From Acidithiobacillus sp. (lineage in GTDB: Bacteria; Pseudomonadota; Gammaproteobacteria; Acidithiobacillales; Acidithiobacillaceae): a stretch of DNA of 64,000 nucleotides. The notes beneath the pieces are model-generated. The model saw nothing but the letters and a program-made list of their open reading frames with translations, had not been told where the DNA came from and ran no database searches. Positions 12,053 to 64,000 of this stretch are shown here, piece after piece. The stretch's first letter is position 1. The number at the start of each line of letters is the position of its first letter. The stretch covers positions 1-64,000 of the forward strand of contig JAQVDS010000011.1 of NCBI GenBank assembly GCA_028697715.1, read 5' to 3'. Position numbers and translations under genes: made by a program.

Positions 12053-12951
12053 TTCTGACCTAACCAGAAACGATAGGACGCATTGTAGCGCGGGGAGAGC
12101 AGCATCTCTGGATGCTTTCTGTAAAGCATCTGCAAACGCCGGACATCACGTTGCCGATAAAGCGCTGCCGCCCGATAGGGTGCCAGCACGCTCGGTGCTA
12201 CGTTTGCTTGCTCGGCTTGTTGAAAAAGCTCCATCGCCTGGCCTGCGGCACCCATCTCCAACGCTCGCAGCCCCCGCAGCATGGCTGGCGCCTGCTCTAC
12301 CGCCGGGTCACCAAACCCAGGCCCAGACTTTGCTCCGTCTTTTCTCAGTACCGGATCGGCCAGCTCACGAGAGTCTGTGTGTTCGATGTTCCAATGCAGC
12401 CAGGCTAGATAATCTTGCAGGCGGCGGCGCAAGCGGGGGCTAGAATGGTGTTCAATATCCTGCTGCAGATCTAACAAGAGTTCCGTGTTTTCCTGTTCGC
12501 GCTGATCGAGGGCTGCATAGGCCAGCAAGCGGATTTCTTCAGCCTCGTCAAGTAACGCGGCGCGAAGCAAATGAGTTTGTTCGGCAAAACGGGAGGAAAC
12601 GATCTGGGAAAGCGCCTCTACCCTCTGACCAAGATTCCTGGATCCACCTAGCCGACCTGCCACCGCCCCCTCCGAGGCAGCAGAAATGCGCAAGCGAAAA
12701 TCTCGCGCAGGCGCTGGGACGAGAATCGGCTCGACTTCGGCAAAGTGAATGCGGTGTCGCACGGAACGCAGCGCAATCGCATAGATTAGGGCAAGTACCG
12801 CGCCCAAAAACGGGAGAAAAATGCTGAGCAACAGAAACAGCCGCCACGCTGGCAACCAACCTTGTGACGCCCTCTCTCGTGGCACAATGATGCTCGCCCC
12901 TAACGATGCCGCCAAGGCGACTAAAAAATATAGGATAGCGACCAAGGTCAC
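12049..12951 (-). CDS. pelE: Pel biosynthesis protein PelE
   Basis: Two N-terminal membrane helices (about residues 3-23 and 36-58) precede a cytosolic helical, TPR-like region of about 240 residues, the known PelE layout. PelE binds PelD in the inner-membrane synthase complex. The start is GTG at 12951, overlapping the pelD stop as GTGA. Its own stop overlaps pelF. The sequence itself is weakly conserved, and identity rests on architecture and position. Confidence 0.85.
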   Translation of the reverse strand: MTLVAILYFLVALAASLGASIIVPRERASQGWLPAWRLFLLLSIFLPFLGAVLALIYAIALRSVRHRIHFAEVEPILVPAPARDFRLRISAASEGAVAGRLGGSRNLGQRVEALSQIVSSRFAEQTHLLRAALLDEAEEIRLLAYAALDQREQENTELLLDLQQDIEHHSSPRLRRRLQDYLAWLHWNIEHTDSRELADPVLRKDGAKSGPGFGDPAVEQAPAMLRGLRALEMGAAGQAMELFQQAEQANVAPSVLAPYRAAALYRQRDVRRLQMLYRKHPEMLLSPRYNASYRFWLGQK

Positions 12952-14237
12952 GGCGAATCTCCCTCTTCGAGGAAGGCATGAATCTGGACAACAGCGTCTC
13001 TGCCGTCAAGCTCCAAGGCATCTCTTCGTTGAAATACCTTTTCCCAATCGTTTGAGCATCTTTCCTGGATCTGTGTTTCCACTCGCCGCAGATAGCCCTC
13101 GACCGCACTCTGGCCGGAAAATGGCAGCAGTACCAGCAGATACAGCCCTTTATTACCGCGATGCAGCCACAACACATCCAATCCGCGACGCAGGTTCTGC
13201 ATGCTTCGCACAATCGCCTCCGCTTGCGGGGCATCCCGCAGAACGTAGCGAACACAGAACCCCACATGCGCCACGATTTTTGCCAAACGCTGCAGTTGCA
13301 AAAAATCAACAGCGAACTCTGGTGGGCAATCGGACCAACGTTGCAGTAATTGCTGTGAAAATTGAACTGCGTTGGAATAGTTACACAGGTACTGAAACAA
13401 AACTTCTACGATCTGCAAGTTTTCTCTGCTAATAGCAAAAAAAGACATCTCTTCAATGGCGAGATAATATGCGATCCCGACTTCTTCCCGGTGGACATGG
13501 ACAGACAGATACTGCTGAATCTGTACCAAATCAAGGCCTGCAATATTCTGGCTATGGCCCTCTGCAACAGCCTGGTGCCAAACAGGATCCATCTCATTCA
13601 ACGCGGCGACATCACCGAAGCTCGCCAGCAAGACGGGCTGCGTATTCGCACTGGAGCAAGAATACCAGGCAGCCACTTGGAGTCCGGCAAGCTGATTCAG
13701 AAAATACAAGACCCGGGACACAATCTCCTGGTTCAGTATACCTCGATTGGCAATGAGACTACGTCGCAGATCTTCTAGGACACTACGCACGGAGACGGGT
13801 TTGTAGAGCAGGCTTTGCTCCAGGCGATCGAGGGAGATTCTGGTGACGTAGAGATCATCCGCGAGCTGGCGTAACCGGGTCGCGGTAATTTCTTCCTCGA
13901 GCGCACGCCCGGTCTCACGCCGAAACCAATACGCGCTGAACTCCGCAGCGATGAGGACCACCAACAACGTACCGGCAGCAAGCTCCAGGCTGACTCCCAG
14001 CGGATAGGGATGCCAGAGAAAATTACTTGCCAGGATCACCATGGAAGCCAGTGCCGGCAGGAAGGCGTAACGCAAGGCGATAAGCAAGGGAATCAGCATC
14101 AACCAAGGGAATCCCTGGGTAAACAACAGGGGATCCTGGGGATGCAGAAAGTTACTGAGCAATAATGCACAGATCGGCAACAGAATTGCCTCGAGCCAGC
14201 CCTCGCTCCTTCGTGGCAGCGCCGTCAACATACCCAT
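12948..14237 (-). CDS. pelD: c-di-GMP receptor PelD
   Basis: Inner-membrane regulator of Pel synthesis. The first 105 residues hold four hydrophobic helices, followed by a GAF-like domain (about 150-290) and a degenerate GGDEF domain (about 305-425). The c-di-GMP inhibitory-site motif RxxD is present as Arg351-Gly-Leu-Asp354. An arginine in GYLRR (384/385) sits where the further ligand-binding Arg of Pseudomonas PelD is expected, 34 residues on. No GG[D/E]EF active site is seen, so it should sense rather than make c-di-GMP. The ATG lies 4 bases after the end of pelC. Confidence 0.92.
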   Translation of the reverse strand: MGMLTALPRRSEGWLEAILLPICALLLSNFLHPQDPLLFTQGFPWLMLIPLLIALRYAFLPALASMVILASNFLWHPYPLGVSLELAAGTLLVVLIAAEFSAYWFRRETGRALEEEITATRLRQLADDLYVTRISLDRLEQSLLYKPVSVRSVLEDLRRSLIANRGILNQEIVSRVLYFLNQLAGLQVAAWYSCSSANTQPVLLASFGDVAALNEMDPVWHQAVAEGHSQNIAGLDLVQIQQYLSVHVHREEVGIAYYLAIEEMSFFAISRENLQIVEVLFQYLCNYSNAVQFSQQLLQRWSDCPPEFAVDFLQLQRLAKIVAHVGFCVRYVLRDAPQAEAIVRSMQNLRRGLDVLWLHRGNKGLYLLVLLPFSGQSAVEGYLRRVETQIQERCSNDWEKVFQRRDALELDGRDAVVQIHAFLEEGDSP

Positions 14238-57151: not shown

Positions 57152-59422
57152 TCAGCATGCCAGGCGCACCGCAATTCCTTTGGAAGCGGGCGTTTTCGAG
57201 AGCTTGTCGTGCTCCGAGATGGGAATCAGCGGGTTCAGCTCGGGATAATACCCGGCAACGGTACCGCGCGGGATCTCGAAAGATACGAGCTCCAGACCGT
57301 CCACCCGACGCTCTACCTCATCCGCCGCGTCACCGAGCAGCGATACCTTTTGTCCCGGACGCAGACCGGCATCGGCGATATCCGCGGCGTTCATGAGGAG
57401 CACATCGCGCGTACCCTCGATGCCGCGGAAGCGATCGGAATAGCCGTAGACCGTGGTATTGAACTGATCATTGGAGCGCAGGGTGATGAGCCGGTAGCGC
57501 CCCGGTGCATCGGCAAAATCCAGGGCATTGAGGCGTTCCGGCAGAGTAAATTCGGCCTTACCGCTGGGAGTTTTCCAGACCCGCTCGCGCGCCGCGTTGA
57601 CTCGCCAAAAACCTCCGGGCTTCTGAATCCGGGCGTTGAAATCATGGAAATCCTCTGGGTAGGTAGCCGCGATCAGGTCGCGTACCTGGCCGTAGTCTGC
57701 TTGCCAGTCGTCCCAGCGCAGCTTGGGATTGGGGTCCAGGGTCGCCTTGGCAATCCCCGCCACAATCGCCAGCTCCGAGCGCAGCTGCGGCGAGGCCGGT
57801 TCGCGGTGCCCGATGGATGGGTGGATCATGGAGAAGCTGTCTTCAATGGTCACGGTTTGATTGCCCGTCGCCTGCTTGTCGATCTCCACGCGCGACAGGC
57901 AGGGGAGGATGTAAGATTCCTTGCCGGGGTACAAATGGCTGCGGTTGAGTTTGGTCGATACCGTCACCGTCAGCTGCTGCTGTGGCCAGACCTCTTGCAA
58001 GCGGGCGATATCAGGCATTGCCCGGAGCAGATTGCCGCCGAGGCTGATCGTGGCCGCCACCTCGCCGCGTAGCAGCGCCTCGCCAACCTCGACAATGTGC
58101 ATGCCGTCCTTCTGCGGCGGTTCAAAGTCGAAGAGGGCGCGCAGCTTGTCCATGGGAACGAGCACCGCCTTTTCCGCGATGCCCACCGTGCGTTGCCCCT
58201 GCACATTGGAGTGCCCGCGCACTGGACAACAACCGGCACCGGGGCGACCGATATTGCCGCGCAGCAAAAGAAAATTAACCAGCATGCCGACGTTCGTCGA
58301 ACCATGTACCTGCTGCGTCAATCCCATGCCGTATACGCCAATCACCCGTTCGGCAGCCATGTAGACCGCTGCCGCTGCGCGCAGAGCGTCCTCGCTCAAG
58401 CCGGTCTCCGCACAGATGGCCGCCCAGGATGTCGCCCGCAAAAAATCGAAAAAATCCTCGAAGCCATGGGTATGCTCGGCCAGGAACGCATGATCGATGA
58501 CCGTACCACCCTGGGTTTCATCGGCCTCCAGGACCGCCTTGCACAGGCCAGTGAGGGCAGCGATATCGGAACCGGCACGCAATTGATGATATTGATCGGA
58601 GATTTGCGTCTCGTGGCCACTGAGCATATCCGACACGCTACTGGGATCGACGAACGCCACCAGACCCTGTTCCCGCACCGGGTTGAAGGTGATGACCTTG
58701 GCCCCGCGCTTTTTGGCATCCTTGAGGGGATGCAGAAAACGGGGCGAGTTCACGCCCGGATTCTGACCAAAGAAAAAGAAGCAGTCAGCCTCGGCCAGAT
58801 CTTCCCAGATTATCGTGCCCACCGGCGAGCCAATGACGCGCTTGAGACCAACGCTGGTGGTCTCGTGACACATATTGGAGCTTTGCGGCAGATTGTTGTT
58901 GCCATACACGCGGGCCAGTAAGGCGTAGAGGTAGGAGGCTTCCAGACCGGCGTGCCCCGAGGCGTAGAATACCACCTGTTTTCTGGGCAGACGGCGCAGG
59001 GTCAGACCGATGGCAGAATAGGCCTCGTCCCAGGAGACCTCGACATAGCGATCCTGCTCGCGATCGTAACGCAGCGGCGCCGTGAGGCGTCCGGTCTTTT
59101 CGAGTTGGTGGTCGGACCAGTCACGCAGCTCGGTGACGGTATGCGAATCCCAGAATCTGGGCGTGCAGCGTGCCGAGGTGGTGTCCCAGAGGATCGCCTT
59201 GGCGCCATTCTCACAGAATTCGAAGGGATGGTAATTGACCGGCTTGGGCCAAGCGCAGGAGGTACACATACTGCCGCCGGGCTTGTTGAGACGTGCCAGG
59301 GTCTCCAGCGCCGCGGGGGTGGCCCAACTCTCGCCGTAGATATGTACGATACCCTCTACCGATCCCCAGCCACCCGCCGGTGGCTTGGGAAGATTCACCT
59401 GGGATTTCTTTTCCACTGCCAT
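57152..59422 (-). CDS. FdhF/YdeP-type molybdopterin oxidoreductase
   Basis: A 756-residue molybdopterin enzyme of the formate dehydrogenase-like YdeP group, in which E. coli YdeP supports acid resistance. Visible are CTSC (Cys52/Cys55) with Cys69, a possible iron-sulfur site, the family ILWDTTSARCTPRF, FFFGQNPGVNSPRFLHPL, and a C-terminal cofactor-binding domain with RLITLRSNDQFNTTVYGY. No in-frame UGA selenocysteine occurs. The Cys in SNMCHETT could be near the metal. No electron-transfer subunit adjoins it, so its substrate is unknown. Confidence 0.85.
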   Translation of the reverse strand: MAVEKKSQVNLPKPPAGGWGSVEGIVHIYGESWATPAALETLARLNKPGGSMCTSCAWPKPVNYHPFEFCENGAKAILWDTTSARCTPRFWDSHTVTELRDWSDHQLEKTGRLTAPLRYDREQDRYVEVSWDEAYSAIGLTLRRLPRKQVVFYASGHAGLEASYLYALLARVYGNNNLPQSSNMCHETTSVGLKRVIGSPVGTIIWEDLAEADCFFFFGQNPGVNSPRFLHPLKDAKKRGAKVITFNPVREQGLVAFVDPSSVSDMLSGHETQISDQYHQLRAGSDIAALTGLCKAVLEADETQGGTVIDHAFLAEHTHGFEDFFDFLRATSWAAICAETGLSEDALRAAAAVYMAAERVIGVYGMGLTQQVHGSTNVGMLVNFLLLRGNIGRPGAGCCPVRGHSNVQGQRTVGIAEKAVLVPMDKLRALFDFEPPQKDGMHIVEVGEALLRGEVAATISLGGNLLRAMPDIARLQEVWPQQQLTVTVSTKLNRSHLYPGKESYILPCLSRVEIDKQATGNQTVTIEDSFSMIHPSIGHREPASPQLRSELAIVAGIAKATLDPNPKLRWDDWQADYGQVRDLIAATYPEDFHDFNARIQKPGGFWRVNAARERVWKTPSGKAEFTLPERLNALDFADAPGRYRLITLRSNDQFNTTVYGYSDRFRGIEGTRDVLLMNAADIADAGLRPGQKVSLLGDAADEVERRVDGLELVSFEIPRGTVAGYYPELNPLIPISEHDKLSKTPASKGIAVRLAC

Positions 59423-59523
59423 TCTCCCGATTTTGTCTAGACTTTCAGTATAGAGAAGCGGAGAGGATTACGCTGGCCCGCGAGACATATAATTATTCTC
59501 TAATCGTACTTTGTTTAAAAAAC

Positions 59524-61020
59524 CTAAGAATCTGGATGCTCGGCATCCGTGGTCACAGGTAAAGGTGCGCCCTCAGAGGCTAATACCGTCGCCACATCGC
59601 GCGGATAGGTGAACGCCGCGAAAACCATGGCGAGGCCGGCAATCAAGAGAAGAATCAGCAAAAGCAGAAAGGCATGCCCGAGGGCCTCGGCGCCTTGCCC
59701 ATCGCTTTTCTGAAAATATCCAACCAAAAGCCCAATCATCAGCGGCGCCAAACCCACCAGAGTATAGCGCACCAGATTGCGTACACTTTCTGCTCGCCCC
59801 CACAAGCGGGAGTGCATGATATCGAGACGCGCGGCATCCAGAGTTGGATTGGTAGCGCCCAAAAACAAGGCCGCCAGAAAAAAACAAGGCGCCGCCACCC
59901 AGACGCTGGGCAGCAGGAAGGCCGGCAGAAAGGCCAGCACCGTCAGAAAGAAGGACCCCGCTGCCACCCACACCCGTGCCGCGACAATGTGCCGGTGCAA
60001 CAATCGATCTGCGAGCCAGCCACTGAGCAAAACTCCGAAGATTCCGCCACTGCCTAGCCCCATGAACAGGATGCTGGCGGTATCGGCGGGGAGATCGAAG
60101 CGCTGCATAAGATAGAGATCGGCAAACACCAAAAGTCCGGTGAAATAAAAATAACTGGCCGACGAGCCGAGAACGAGAATGATGTTGGTACGAATGGTGA
60201 CGATGTAGCGCACCGCCCGTGTCCACGGCCAGCAGGTCGGATCCTCGTGCATCACCCGGTCGGGGTATGGCGAAATCGCCATCCGACGAATCAGATCGGC
60301 AACCTTGTGGGAACGCGCTGGGGCGGAGTCAGAGCGCGAAAGGCTTGTGGAGCCGGTGGCAATTTTCTCCATCGTATTGCGTTGCGGCTCCCGCAGATAC
60401 CGTCGTATAACGACAACTCCCAATAATCCCAACAATGCCAGGCTCCAAAAAGCAAAACGCCAGCCCAGGAGGTCGGCGACGATACTCGCCACCAGCATCC
60501 CGATTCCGGCACCCAACAACTCACCACCTACAATCAGGCCAAAAATTCTGCCACGCTGAGAGGGCGGAAAGTAATCCCCGGTCAGGGAGGCGACCACCGC
60601 GCCGACGGAGATACCGCTGGCACCGACCACGATCTGCGCCAGCAAGAGCTCCAGATAACCGGGAATGAAGCCGCTGGCAGCCATACCCAGTGCCCAGCTG
60701 CCAGCAAAAATGGCCAGGAGATGCACGCGCTTTCGTCGATCCACCCAGATCCCAGCGATCAGGGTTAGTATCGCGCCAGAGAGCGAGGCTACCGTACCCA
60801 CCAGACCAAATCGCGCGTCGCTGATGTGTAATGTGGCCTCCAGTGCATGGGCCAACGCCCCAAGCGCTGCGAGGTTTGCCGATGCCACTCCCAATACCGC
60901 GGCGAGTATTACCACTACCCGGGCACGATTGGGCAGATGTTGCGAAAAACGATATTCGAGATGCTCGTATTCGGAACAGAGCCAATGTTCCAGGTTGACG
61001 AGATTTTCCCTGTTGATCAT
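59524..61020 (-). CDS. MFS transporter
   Basis: A 498-residue, ~12-helix major facilitator. The loop after helix 2 has GIWVDRRKRVHLL, and the matching second-half loop has GWLADRLLHRH. A hydrophilic ~35-residue N terminus and long central loop are notable. The frame continues upstream as a shadow of copA. I chose the ATG at 61020; no Shine-Dalgarno is visible. TATACT lies six bases before it, which suggests a leaderless transcript. Substrate unknown. It is divergent from copA. Confidence 0.78.
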   Translation of the reverse strand: MINRENLVNLEHWLCSEYEHLEYRFSQHLPNRARVVVILAAVLGVASANLAALGALAHALEATLHISDARFGLVGTVASLSGAILTLIAGIWVDRRKRVHLLAIFAGSWALGMAASGFIPGYLELLLAQIVVGASGISVGAVVASLTGDYFPPSQRGRIFGLIVGGELLGAGIGMLVASIVADLLGWRFAFWSLALLGLLGVVVIRRYLREPQRNTMEKIATGSTSLSRSDSAPARSHKVADLIRRMAISPYPDRVMHEDPTCWPWTRAVRYIVTIRTNIILVLGSSASYFYFTGLLVFADLYLMQRFDLPADTASILFMGLGSGGIFGVLLSGWLADRLLHRHIVAARVWVAAGSFFLTVLAFLPAFLLPSVWVAAPCFFLAALFLGATNPTLDAARLDIMHSRLWGRAESVRNLVRYTLVGLAPLMIGLLVGYFQKSDGQGAEALGHAFLLLLILLLIAGLAMVFAAFTYPRDVATVLASEGAPLPVTTDAEHPDS

Positions 61021-61054
61021 AGAGGTAGTATAAGCGAAAAGAGAATAGACGGCC

Positions 61055-61086
61055 TTGACCTTACAAGCCAGTAAAGGGTTTATCCT
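61055..61086 (+). promoter_or_regulatory. copA promoter with CueR/MerR-like site
   Basis: TTGACC (61055-61060) and TATCCT (61081-61086) are separated by 20 bases, a stretched spacer typical of MerR-family promoters. The imperfect dyad ACCTTAC...GTAAAGGGT (61058-61079) fills the spacer and resembles the copA operators of CueR. The start ATG lies at 61093, about where transcription should begin. Confidence 0.6.
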
Positions 61087-61092
61087 GTAATC

Positions 61093-63567
61093 ATGAACAG
61101 CACATTGACACCCGAATCCATCGATAAGAAGATCGCGCGCACCCCGAGCACCCAGCGCCTGCGCGTGGGGGTAACGGGCATGACCTGTGCCTCCTGCAGC
61201 AGCCGGGTGGAACGGGCCTTGAACAAGGTGGCGGGGGTGGAAGCGAGCGTCAACCTGGCGACGGAAACGGCGGAGATCCAGTTTGATCCGGCGCAAACGC
61301 CCGTCGCCACCGTCGTTGCCGCTATCGAAAAGGCTGGCTACGGCGCCCTCAGCGCCGAAGCGCAATTGGCCGTGGAGGGGATGACCTGTGCATCCTGTAG
61401 CAGCCGGGTGGAGCGTACCCTGCGCCGTCTGCCCGGGGTGCTCGAAGCTGGCGTAAACTTGGCAACGGAGCGCGCGCAGGTCCGCTACCTGCCAAGCAGC
61501 ATCACCGTCGACGAGATGATAGCCGCCATCCAGGCAGCGGGCTACGGCGCCAGAAACCTGGACCACAGCGAGGAGGCGGAGGAAGGCGACCACAAGGCCG
61601 CCCTCCTGCATGCCATGGGCCGTGATGTGGTCCTCGCTATCAGTTTCGCCCTCATCGTTCTTCTTCTGGCGATGGGATCGGCATTTTCGCCCGCTTTTGC
61701 CGCCTGGCTACAGACTAACGCGCCACTGCCCAAATTTTGGGAGGGTGTGCAGTTTATTCTGGCAAGTATCGTGCTGTTCTGGCCCGGACGGCGTTTTTTC
61801 CGCCCTGGTTGGATTGCCTATCGTCACCTATCCCCCGACATGAATTCCCTCGTCGCCACCGGTACCGGCGCGGCCTGGCTCTATAGCAGCCTGGTGCTTT
61901 TTGTCCCCTTCGTCTTTCCCGCCAGTGCTCGTCATCTCTATTTCGACTCCGCGGCCGTGGTCATCGCCGCCGTATTGCTCGGCAAATATCTGGAAGAGGT
62001 CGCCAAGGGACGCAGCTCGGCGGCCATCCGCGCCTTGTTGCAACTGCAGACGAAAACTGCGCGACGCATCGATGCGCAAGGGCAGGAAGAGGAAGTGTCC
62101 GTTACCCAATTGCGTCTCGGCGATCATCTCCTGGTGCGACCCGGAGAGCGTATTCCGGCGGATGGCCGGGTGCTGGAGGGCAGCGCCCATGTCGATGAAG
62201 CAATGCTGAGCGGTGAACCGATTCCGCAAAAACGCGAAGCGGGCGCCGAGGTCTTTGCCGGCACCTTCTGCCAGGATGGACGCCTGCGCATCGAGGTCAC
62301 GCGCTTGGGGAAAGACTCGGTGCTGGCGCAGATCATTGCCCTGGTGGAGTCCGCGCAGAGCGGCAAGTTGCCCATCCAGGGTCTCGCGGACCGGGTGATC
62401 CGCATCTTTTCCCCGCTGGTTCTCGCCATCGCCTTGTTGAGCTTTCTGTTCTGGTCGCTCTACAGCGCCAACGTCAGTCTGGCATTGGCCACGGCCGTGG
62501 CCGTGCTGGTGGTTGCCTGCCCCTGCGCCATGGGTCTTGCCACACCAGCCGCCATCATGGTAGGCACCGGGCGCGCTGCTGAACTGGGGGTCCTCTTTCG
62601 CAAGGGCAGTGCCCTGGAGATGCTCGCCGGAGTCGACACGGTATTGTTCGACAAAACCGGTACCGTCACCCGCGGACGCCCGACCCTGGTCGCTCGCGGT
62701 GGTGCCCAGGAAGCGCTGGCGATTGCGGCGGCGGTCGAGCGCGATTCGGAACACCCCATCGCCCGCGCCATTGTCGATGCGGCACCCGCGCCTTCCCAGC
62801 CGGTTGAGAATTTCCGGGTCGTGCCTGGGCAAGGCGTCGAAGGGCAGTTGGCTGGCACCCAGGTGCGGGTGGGTACCCAGGAGTTTCTGGAGCAGCAGAA
62901 TATCGCCATCCCCGAGGACGACGAACTGCGTATCCAGGAAGCGGCCGGTGCGACTATCGTCTTTGTCGCTCAGGGCAATGCGTATCTGGGGTGGCTGGCG
63001 GTAGCCGATGCCTTACGGGTCGAAGCGCCAGAAGTCTGCACCGCGCTACGTCAGATGGGAATGAATCTAGCCCTGGTGACTGGCGACGGCGCGGCACCTG
63101 CGCGCCGGGTGGCGAAACAACTTGGCATCGAAGAGGTACATGCGCGGATCCTGCCGCAGGACAAGGCCAAGGTCGTCCAGAAGTATCAGGCCCGGGGTCG
63201 GCGGGTTGCCTTCATCGGCGACGGCATCAACGATGCCCCGGCCCTCGCCCAGGCGGATGTCGGGATTGCTCTGGCAAGCGGTACGGAAATCGCCATGGAG
63301 GCCGCCGACGTGACGCTGAGCCACCCCGACCTCGGCACCCTGGTCACCGCTCTACGGGCAGCTCGGCAAACCCTGGGGCGGATTCGCGGCAATCTTTTCT
63401 GGGCCTTCTTTTACAACATCCTCTTGATTCCTCTAGCAGCCGGAGTCTTTTTGCCCTGGGGACTGCAGCTCAACCCCATGCTCGCTGGGGTTGCCATGGG
63501 TTTTTCCTCGATCTTCGTGCTTGGCAACAGCCTGCGCCTGCGGCGCATCCGTGCCTTCGTCGCCTAG
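61093..63567 (+). CDS. copA: Copper-exporting P1B-type ATPase
   Basis: An 824-residue Cu(I) efflux pump. Two N-terminal metal-binding domains carry GMTCASC (Cys32/35 and Cys99/102). About eight membrane helices follow, with the transport motif CPC (Cys476 and Cys478), the phosphorylation motif DKTGT (Asp520), SEHPIA, and GDGINDAPALAQADVG. It protects the cytosol from copper. No clear ribosome site precedes the ATG. Its stop overlaps recJ tail to tail. Confidence 0.95.
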   Translation: MNSTLTPESIDKKIARTPSTQRLRVGVTGMTCASCSSRVERALNKVAGVEASVNLATETAEIQFDPAQTPVATVVAAIEKAGYGALSAEAQLAVEGMTCASCSSRVERTLRRLPGVLEAGVNLATERAQVRYLPSSITVDEMIAAIQAAGYGARNLDHSEEAEEGDHKAALLHAMGRDVVLAISFALIVLLLAMGSAFSPAFAAWLQTNAPLPKFWEGVQFILASIVLFWPGRRFFRPGWIAYRHLSPDMNSLVATGTGAAWLYSSLVLFVPFVFPASARHLYFDSAAVVIAAVLLGKYLEEVAKGRSSAAIRALLQLQTKTARRIDAQGQEEEVSVTQLRLGDHLLVRPGERIPADGRVLEGSAHVDEAMLSGEPIPQKREAGAEVFAGTFCQDGRLRIEVTRLGKDSVLAQIIALVESAQSGKLPIQGLADRVIRIFSPLVLAIALLSFLFWSLYSANVSLALATAVAVLVVACPCAMGLATPAAIMVGTGRAAELGVLFRKGSALEMLAGVDTVLFDKTGTVTRGRPTLVARGGAQEALAIAAAVERDSEHPIARAIVDAAPAPSQPVENFRVVPGQGVEGQLAGTQVRVGTQEFLEQQNIAIPEDDELRIQEAAGATIVFVAQGNAYLGWLAVADALRVEAPEVCTALRQMGMNLALVTGDGAAPARRVAKQLGIEEVHARILPQDKAKVVQKYQARGRRVAFIGDGINDAPALAQADVGIALASGTEIAMEAADVTLSHPDLGTLVTALRAARQTLGRIRGNLFWAFFYNILLIPLAAGVFLPWGLQLNPMLAGVAMGFSSIFVLGNSLRLRRIRAFVA

Positions 63568-64000
63568 CACGGCTCCGCATGGCGAATCTGCAGTTGCAGG
63601 CGCGATTCACCGCGCCAGTCGTTGCGCTCCAGGGCATAGGCGAAACGGACTTGCTGGCCAGCCTGCACGGGCCGCACGCCATCCTCACTGGCAAAGAACC
63701 AGATGGCGTCAAAATCCTCGCCGCCCATACGCAGCGCAAGCTTGAGGTGGCGGCCATCGCCCACCGACCGTAGACTGCTGATCGTCCCTTCCCCAACAAA
63801 GAGGGGTGCCTCCCACTGCCGCCCAAAGGGCTCCAACTCGCTGATTTCCAGCAACTGTTCCATGCTGGGCAGGGTCGGCATAGCGCCATCGGTCCAGATG
63901 CGCGGGCCGCGCGGTTCTTCTCCAAAATGCACCGCCGCTAACTCTGCCCAGGCGCTACGAAAGACATCCAGGGCGCTGCGCCGCAGGGTGACCCCCCCCG
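63564..64000 (-). CDS. recJ: Single-stranded-DNA exonuclease RecJ, C-terminal part
   Basis: The gene enters from beyond the right end. The visible ~145 residues match the RecJ C-terminal OB-fold region (GVTLRRSALDVFRSAWAELAA, LEPFGRQWEAPLF). The catalytic DHH/DHHA1 domains lie outside the window. The protein acts in recombination repair. It stops at TAG, overlapping copA by 3 bases. Confidence 0.8.
   Translation of the reverse strand, partial: GGVTLRRSALDVFRSAWAELAAVHFGEEPRGPRIWTDGAMPTLPSMEQLLEISELEPFGRQWEAPLFVGEGTISSLRSVGDGRHLKLALRMGGEDFDAIWFFASEDGVRPVQAGQQVRFAYALERNDWRGESRLQLQIRHAEPC

Follow-up and report, generated by a model that had tools for sequence, protein, structure and literature searches.

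The genes for a copper-exporting ATPase (copA) and for an MFS transporter lie head to head in this DNA, and the gap between them (61021-61092, 72 bases) reaches from the ATG of the MFS gene (61020, - strand) to that of copA (61093, + strand). How are two genes started from so short a gap, and does copper control one or both of them? The preliminary description had proposed a MerR/CueR-like promoter for copA, copper control shared with the divergent gene, and leaderless starts for both. We followed these proposals through the window (the whole 64,000-nt stretch analysed, G+C 59.3%), its genome (G000, 2.46 Mb), seven relatives of the same genus and a comparison family of 29 genomes, which by inference is Acidithiobacillaceae. 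The genus of the window is presumably 'Igneacidithiobacillus', for which G+C contents of 58.5-59.6% are reported (PMC8528912). On comparative sequence grounds, we consider it likely that 61055-61092 is a copper-inducible promoter of copA that is regulated by a MerR-type protein and yields a leaderless transcript.

Layout of the intergenic gap and the flanking genes

The layout that had been read in the gap was borne out. On the + strand, TTGACC, a 20-bp spacer, TATCCT, six bases and the copA ATG follow one another, and on the - strand TATACT was found at 61032-61027, six bases before the MFS ATG (Table 1). CopA passed the copper ATPase model TIGR01511 (578.7 bits, cut-off 397) and carries HMA domains, while it stayed under the cut-off of the E. 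coli CopA model PRK10671.1 (635.4 of 1316). The MFS protein exceeded none of the curated cut-offs of the 23 families listed.

Table 1. Features of the gap between copA and the MFS gene, with the two flanking genes
Feature	Position	Strand	Remark
MFS transporter gene	59524..61020	-	498 aa; MFS_1 domain
Six nucleotides from MFS -10 box to ATG	61021..61026	-	in G000 and G007 only
MFS -10 box TATACT	61027..61032 (5' end at 61032)	-	hexamer kept in 4/4 species
copA -35 box TTGACC	61055..61060	+	identical across the four species sharing the arrangement
Predicted 22-bp operator dyad, ACCTTACAAGC / CAGTAAAGGGT	61058..61079	+	weak alone; register backed by 19 family promoters
20-bp spacer, MerR-type, of ZntR length	61061..61080	+	length 20 in 24/37 and 19 in 13/37 family copA loci read
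copA -10 box TATCCT	61081..61086	+	TATGAT in G003
Six nucleotides from copA -10 box to ATG	61087..61092	+	length fixed, sequence free; expected +1 is the A of the ATG
copA	61093..63567	+	Cu+ exporting P1B-type ATPase, 824 aa, two HMA domains

Long-spacer boxes precede copA across the family

Neither promoter of the gap appeared in the output of the standard promoter scan, which covers spacers of 16-18 bp only, and the family was read for boxes with longer spacers. Long-spacer boxes (19 or 20 bp) were found at all 37 family copA loci read. At 36 of them the boxes lay no more than 170 nt from the first matched codon, as compared with 160 of 7400 shuffles, and at the remaining locus (L016) they lay just inside the match. 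An alternative box pair with a spacer of 16-18 bp was also present at eight of the 37. These loci are a subset of the copA-like matches. L028, which lacks upstream DNA, and L194, which occupies the position of L014, were left out, and L027, L029 and L030 lie outside the family and so are not counted; no close copA was present in G004 or G012, and G015 contributed a second fragment. Among the additional genes encountered, the second copA genes of G003 (L183) and G007 (L184) have identical 260-nt upstream regions, which looks like recent transfer judging from the sequences, while the main copA genes of these two genomes are 76% and 96% identical, respectively, to that of the window.

The bare boxes, written as TTGACNNT-N18-TANNNT, gave seven matches in the window's own genome and nine in the control, which is not above chance, and they were dropped as stand-alone evidence. 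We then turned to the sequence between the boxes. The set for this analysis consisted of 19 promoters, i.e. the 24 loci with a 20-bp spacer minus four repeated promoters and minus G027, which is one base from G024. When 14 centres were tried, 109 of 209 pairs were formed at the best centre and 70 of 209 at the runner-up, and the best family dyad spans 22 bp at positions 4-25. A palindrome of the ZntR type is thus found for the family set and is weak in the window alone, where 5 of 11 pairs form in the 22-bp register, a value that about 12% of shuffles reach. The copA dyad stands out because 19 related promoters could be aligned, not from the window by itself, and these promoters, like the three copZ sites described below, all belong to related species and cannot be treated as independent. 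The available text of PMC1526738 gives a 19-bp spacer for CueR and HmrR promoters, and for ZntR a 22-bp palindrome inside a 20-bp spacer. By its sequence, the copA site combines the ZntR geometry with a copper gene and departs from the standard CueR type.

The copA ATG coincides with the expected transcription start in four species

Transcription by sigma-70 polymerase usually starts seven bases after the -10 box, and with a gap of six bases the expected +1 of copA is therefore the A of its ATG. The gap measured six bases in all four species that share the arrangement (G000, G007, G002 and G003), and the six bases themselves differ at two to six positions between species pairs, while the -35 box shows no differences. 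In three of the four, a stop codon in the copA frame at -21 precludes a start further upstream, whereas the frame of G003 stays open beyond this point. At the other 33 family loci, the best start lay 30-109 nt after the -10 box. At 31 of these 33, the duplex upstream of the best start reached -5.6 kcal/mol or more in strength, while the four did not go beyond -4.6; the two leadered loci with a weak duplex were L006 (-3.2) and L015 (-4.1). Closer starts were seen at L186, the second copA of G013, where a GTG lies 6 nt after the -10 box but an ATG with a stronger duplex lies at +30, and at L025 (GTG at +11) and L020 (ATG at +15), both of which have a better start downstream. The four CopA proteins have 29 residues before HMA1, about 14 more than the 10 to 18 found at the best start elsewhere. 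We also examined 36 of 80 copA-like loci, 34 of them with a readable HMA start, and found no start 6 nt after long-spacer boxes; five of the 36 were family members again (L043, L044, L047, L050 and L057). A plasmid search returned 27 records with short ATPase similarity.

The preliminary description had also stated that copA has no Shine-Dalgarno sequence. This held at normal spacing, but a 20-nt stretch before the ATG gives a duplex of -4.6 kcal/mol (-3.3 in a tighter stretch). In our reading this duplex arises from the AAAGGG of the operator, 15-20 nt upstream, and thus before the predicted transcription start. A result against the leaderless reading came from a permissive scan, in which 47 of the 49 ORFs of the window, the copA and MFS frames among them, showed a Shine-Dalgarno-like duplex when as many as 12 candidate starts each were considered.

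How much weight can the spacing bear? Across the window, a -10-like hexamer lies 5-7 nt before 51 of 1995 ATGs, and with this background of 2.6% a single case proves little, so that it is the constant distance in four species that carries weight. Three of the four are close (copA identity at least 90%). G003 differs from them at 9 of 20 spacer positions and 2 of 6 positions of the -10 box, and its first copA codons differ so strongly that the coding of these codons rests on the three close species. All four share descent, and the constant distance is one event with its maintenance, not four independent events. As a separate observation, TACACT also stands six bases in front of the ATG of a PelD-like gene in the window (12948-14237, - strand). 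This gene seems to adjoin the end of the frame upstream, and the place thus probably represents an operon junction and not a leaderless promoter.

A MerR-regulated copA whose transcript is not leaderless is an unlikely alternative, though one with evidence of its own. Transcription would then come from an upstream promoter inside the MFS gene, or translation would begin at an internal start, either the TTG of codon 5 or the in-frame ATG of codon 30 (61180). The latter ATG lies within the first HMA motif and has an upstream duplex of -9.7, stronger than that at 61093. We think that this duplex stems from the glycine codons in the motif: the G-rich stretch encodes conserved HMA glycines and, as we read it, occurs in leadered relatives too. 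Moreover, a start at codon 30 would leave HMA1 without its first strand, and the TTG of codon 5 comes without a duplex (+0.4). In a longer transcript the operator AAAGGG could serve as a poor Shine-Dalgarno sequence, and the copA of G003 has an ATG 45 nt after its -10 box, close to the other family starts. Against this alternative also stand the constant 6-nt distance and the promoter scan of the + strand from 58000 to 64000, which within its range of 16-18 bp spacers gave no other candidate. The leaderless start predicted earlier for copA is supported by the persistence of the 6-nt gap despite sequence change and by the more distant starts of the other 33 loci. To judge from these comparisons, the copA promoter is probably of the copper type and its transcript probably leaderless. 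The ATG of G003 (L004) just mentioned is in frame and leaves 16 residues before HMA1; it may be what is left of the ancestral start.

An orphan MerR-type protein is the likely regulator of copA

The MerR-type complement of G000 comprises four full proteins and two short matches (C18). Three of the proteins were set aside: that on C44 is of the mercury type, that on C66 adjoins an ihfA-like gene, and that on C62 has no assigned role. The remaining protein is an orphan encoded at G000:C59:52607-53053, unlinked to copA. Homologues of the C59 protein with at least 61% identity were found in 27 of the 29 family genomes; none was found in G005, which is 61% complete, and only a weak one in G025. Outside the family, a copA-like match lies about 500 nt or less from the homologue in G040, G042 and G049, i.e. 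in three of the four genomes with the best non-family homologues, and the fourth (G041) has one weak copA match only (E 3e-4). CsoR was searched for in G000 and not found there, and is present in G002 and G007. From these data the C59 protein is the likely regulator of copA, which would act by binding the copA site.

The best solved relative of the C59 protein was 4ua1, labelled only 'Regulatory protein', which we take to be a mercury MerR and which came ahead of CueR. The protein stayed under both curated cut-offs, with a score for ZntR (127.6 of 167.95 bits) slightly above that for CueR (124.3 of 147.4 bits). Together with the ZntR geometry of the site (PMC1526738), these two points favour a reading in which the regulator senses another metal (Hg, Zn, Cd or Pb) and the link of copA to copper is secondary. 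We give this reading little credence. According to the accessible text of PMC9909328, the residue at the CueR Ser77 position is the main determinant of the choice between +1 and +2 ions. The Cys typical of divalent sensors is absent from all 27 family regulators, which in the alignment carry Met at the Ser77/Cys79 position, along with a Cys-x8-Cys loop; this Met is neither the Ser of CueR nor the Cys of the divalent sensors. In addition, the targets that we found are copA and copZ. A copper-responsive regulator is accordingly our preferred reading, and the earlier label of a MerR/CueR-like promoter is retained in part: long-spacer boxes across the family agree with a metal-responsive promoter of the MerR type, while the 20-bp spacer and 22-bp dyad and a regulator below both cut-offs speak against CueR in particular.

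A motif derived from copA sites also precedes copZ

We built a motif from the copA sites and searched it, with at most one mismatch, in 19 of the 29 family genomes, using the reversed motif as the control. The search gave 21 matches in 15 of the 19 genomes and none with the reversed control. In G000 the single match was the copA site of the window, and the control again gave none. Seventeen of the 21 matches lie at copA and are circular by construction; one of them belongs to a truncated copA. Three matches precede a short gene with an HMA domain (copZ), namely L212, L213 and L225 in G019, G020 and G022, all with a 20-bp spacer, and the last lies in G018 near a contig end, beside no assigned gene. 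The copZ matches are not circular because the motif was made from copA sites, though the three genes are close relatives. The copZ of G019, the single one of the three tested, passed the CopZ model (99.3 bits, cut-off 85). The presence of a copA-like promoter at copZ suggests, at the sequence level, a small copper regulon in the family, and for a CopZ-like protein of Acidithiobacillus ferrooxidans a role in copper resistance is reported in the available text of PMC5328820. The truncated copA (L211, G022:C1:1977662-1978414) keeps the start, the first HMA domain and the C-terminal part, together with an intact copper-type promoter.

Comparison with known metal-responsive and leaderless systems

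The copA site resembles the CueR/HmrR copA promoters of Proteobacteria in being a long-spacer promoter of the MerR type with a dyad between the boxes and a Cu+ ATPase as its target, and in having copZ as a further target in relatives. It differs from them in its 20-bp spacer with a 22-bp dyad (19 bp in theirs), in an unlinked regulator that scores below the cut-offs, and in the predicted lack of a leader. The regulator shares with CueR the lack of a divalent-site Cys at 77/79 and the two loop Cys, but has Met in place of the CueR Ser. Similarly, the site resembles the ZntR-controlled zntA of Escherichia coli in its 22-bp dyad within a 20-bp spacer, and the regulator scores about equally for ZntR and CueR. 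Unlike zntA, the target here is a Cu+ type ATPase, the regulator has no divalent-site Cys, and the sequence of the dyad is different.

For the leaderless start, the nearest comparison is Cupriavidus metallidurans CH34, in which mapped leaderless mRNAs include copJ, merP and czcI2; leaderless is defined there as a transcript 5' end at most 5 nt from the start codon (both as given in the available text of PMC7563307). The two cases would have in common a metal-resistance gene on a leaderless mRNA and differ in that the CH34 starts were mapped, while that of copA is inferred from sequence. In the accessible portion of PMC7563307, copA is not among the leaderless genes of CH34. Titles and abstract openings of the open literature searched likewise contained no leaderless copA in these bacteria.

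A model for copA regulation and its history

In the mechanism that we propose, a dimer of the MerR family, most likely the C59 orphan, would sit on the 22-bp dyad between the -35 and -10 boxes, where, as long as no Cu+ (or Ag+/Au+) is bound to the loop cysteines of the regulator, the 20-bp spacer would deny RNA polymerase joint use of the two boxes. Binding of the metal would then distort the DNA and realign the boxes. Given the fixed spacing, the first transcribed base would be the A of the copA ATG or one adjacent to it, and the resulting leaderless mRNA would be translated without a Shine-Dalgarno sequence. The ancestral copA, to judge from the comparison, would have been leadered, most often with a Shine-Dalgarno sequence; the lineage comprising G000, G007, G002 and G003 would then have lost this leader and extended the frame to the promoter, adding about 14 residues to CopA. 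Leader loss with extension of the frame to the promoter is the simplest history that the sequences allow us to draw.

A broader proposal, which we put forward as speculative and rather doubtful, is that a MerR-type copper sensor with ZntR-like geometry drives a leaderless copA and that one lineage of extreme acidophiles switched its pump from translation led by a ribosome site to leaderless translation; the pump could then go on being made while copper or acid stress impairs ordinary initiation. If true, a single family would offer a natural comparison of the same copper switch on leadered and leaderless copA, in which the effect of a leaderless start on the metal response would be directly testable. 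It would also point to a copper regulator acting through the 20-bp geometry that has until now been attributed to the zinc regulator, and would provide metal-leaching bacteria with a likely candidate for this role.

The divergent MFS gene

The full version of the earlier proposal, in which both genes are copper-induced from the gap and both are leaderless, now appears improbable. Two observations favour it: the TATACT hexamer is kept in all four species, and the two predicted starts lie 73 bp apart, so that complexes at both would overlap. However, no hexamer 15-22 bp upstream of this -10 box matches TTGACA at more than two of six positions. The distance from the -10 box to the MFS start is 6 nt in G000 and G007, 34 in G002 and 31 in G003, and with the 6-nt gap present in two of four species only, the leaderless start proposed for this gene was not sustained.

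The surroundings of the gene in relatives likewise give no support to shared control. The MFS gene is divergent from copA in four of the eight genomes of the genus. In G001, copA and the MFS gene are on different contigs; there the MFS gene follows a lipoprotein-like frame, and a GGAGG ends 12 nt upstream of its ATG. In the sister genus g2, the locus examined in full (L178) has the MFS gene following MlaD (26.4 bits, cut-off 25.1) and ABC_trans_aux (lipoprotein) genes, and the DNA upstream of the MFS gene in the other six g2 relatives is similar by eye to that of L178. No long-spacer promoter was found within 300 nt of the MFS match in the eight relatives outside the four (seven g2 and G001). 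Shared copper control of the MFS gene is therefore not supported, given the lack of a -35-like hexamer, the result for these eight relatives and the different operon of L178. The copper link of the gene is purely one of position. In the history that we favour, the MFS gene would have moved beside copA in the same lineage in which copA lost its leader; with a weak -10 box only, it may be acted on by the regulator or polymerase through proximity, and copper could lower its expression as well as raise it. Upstream of the MFS gene of G002 (L173), the ATG six bases after TATACT opens a frame of 13 codons that overlaps the MFS start codon; this frame could encode a leaderless leader peptide or have arisen by chance.
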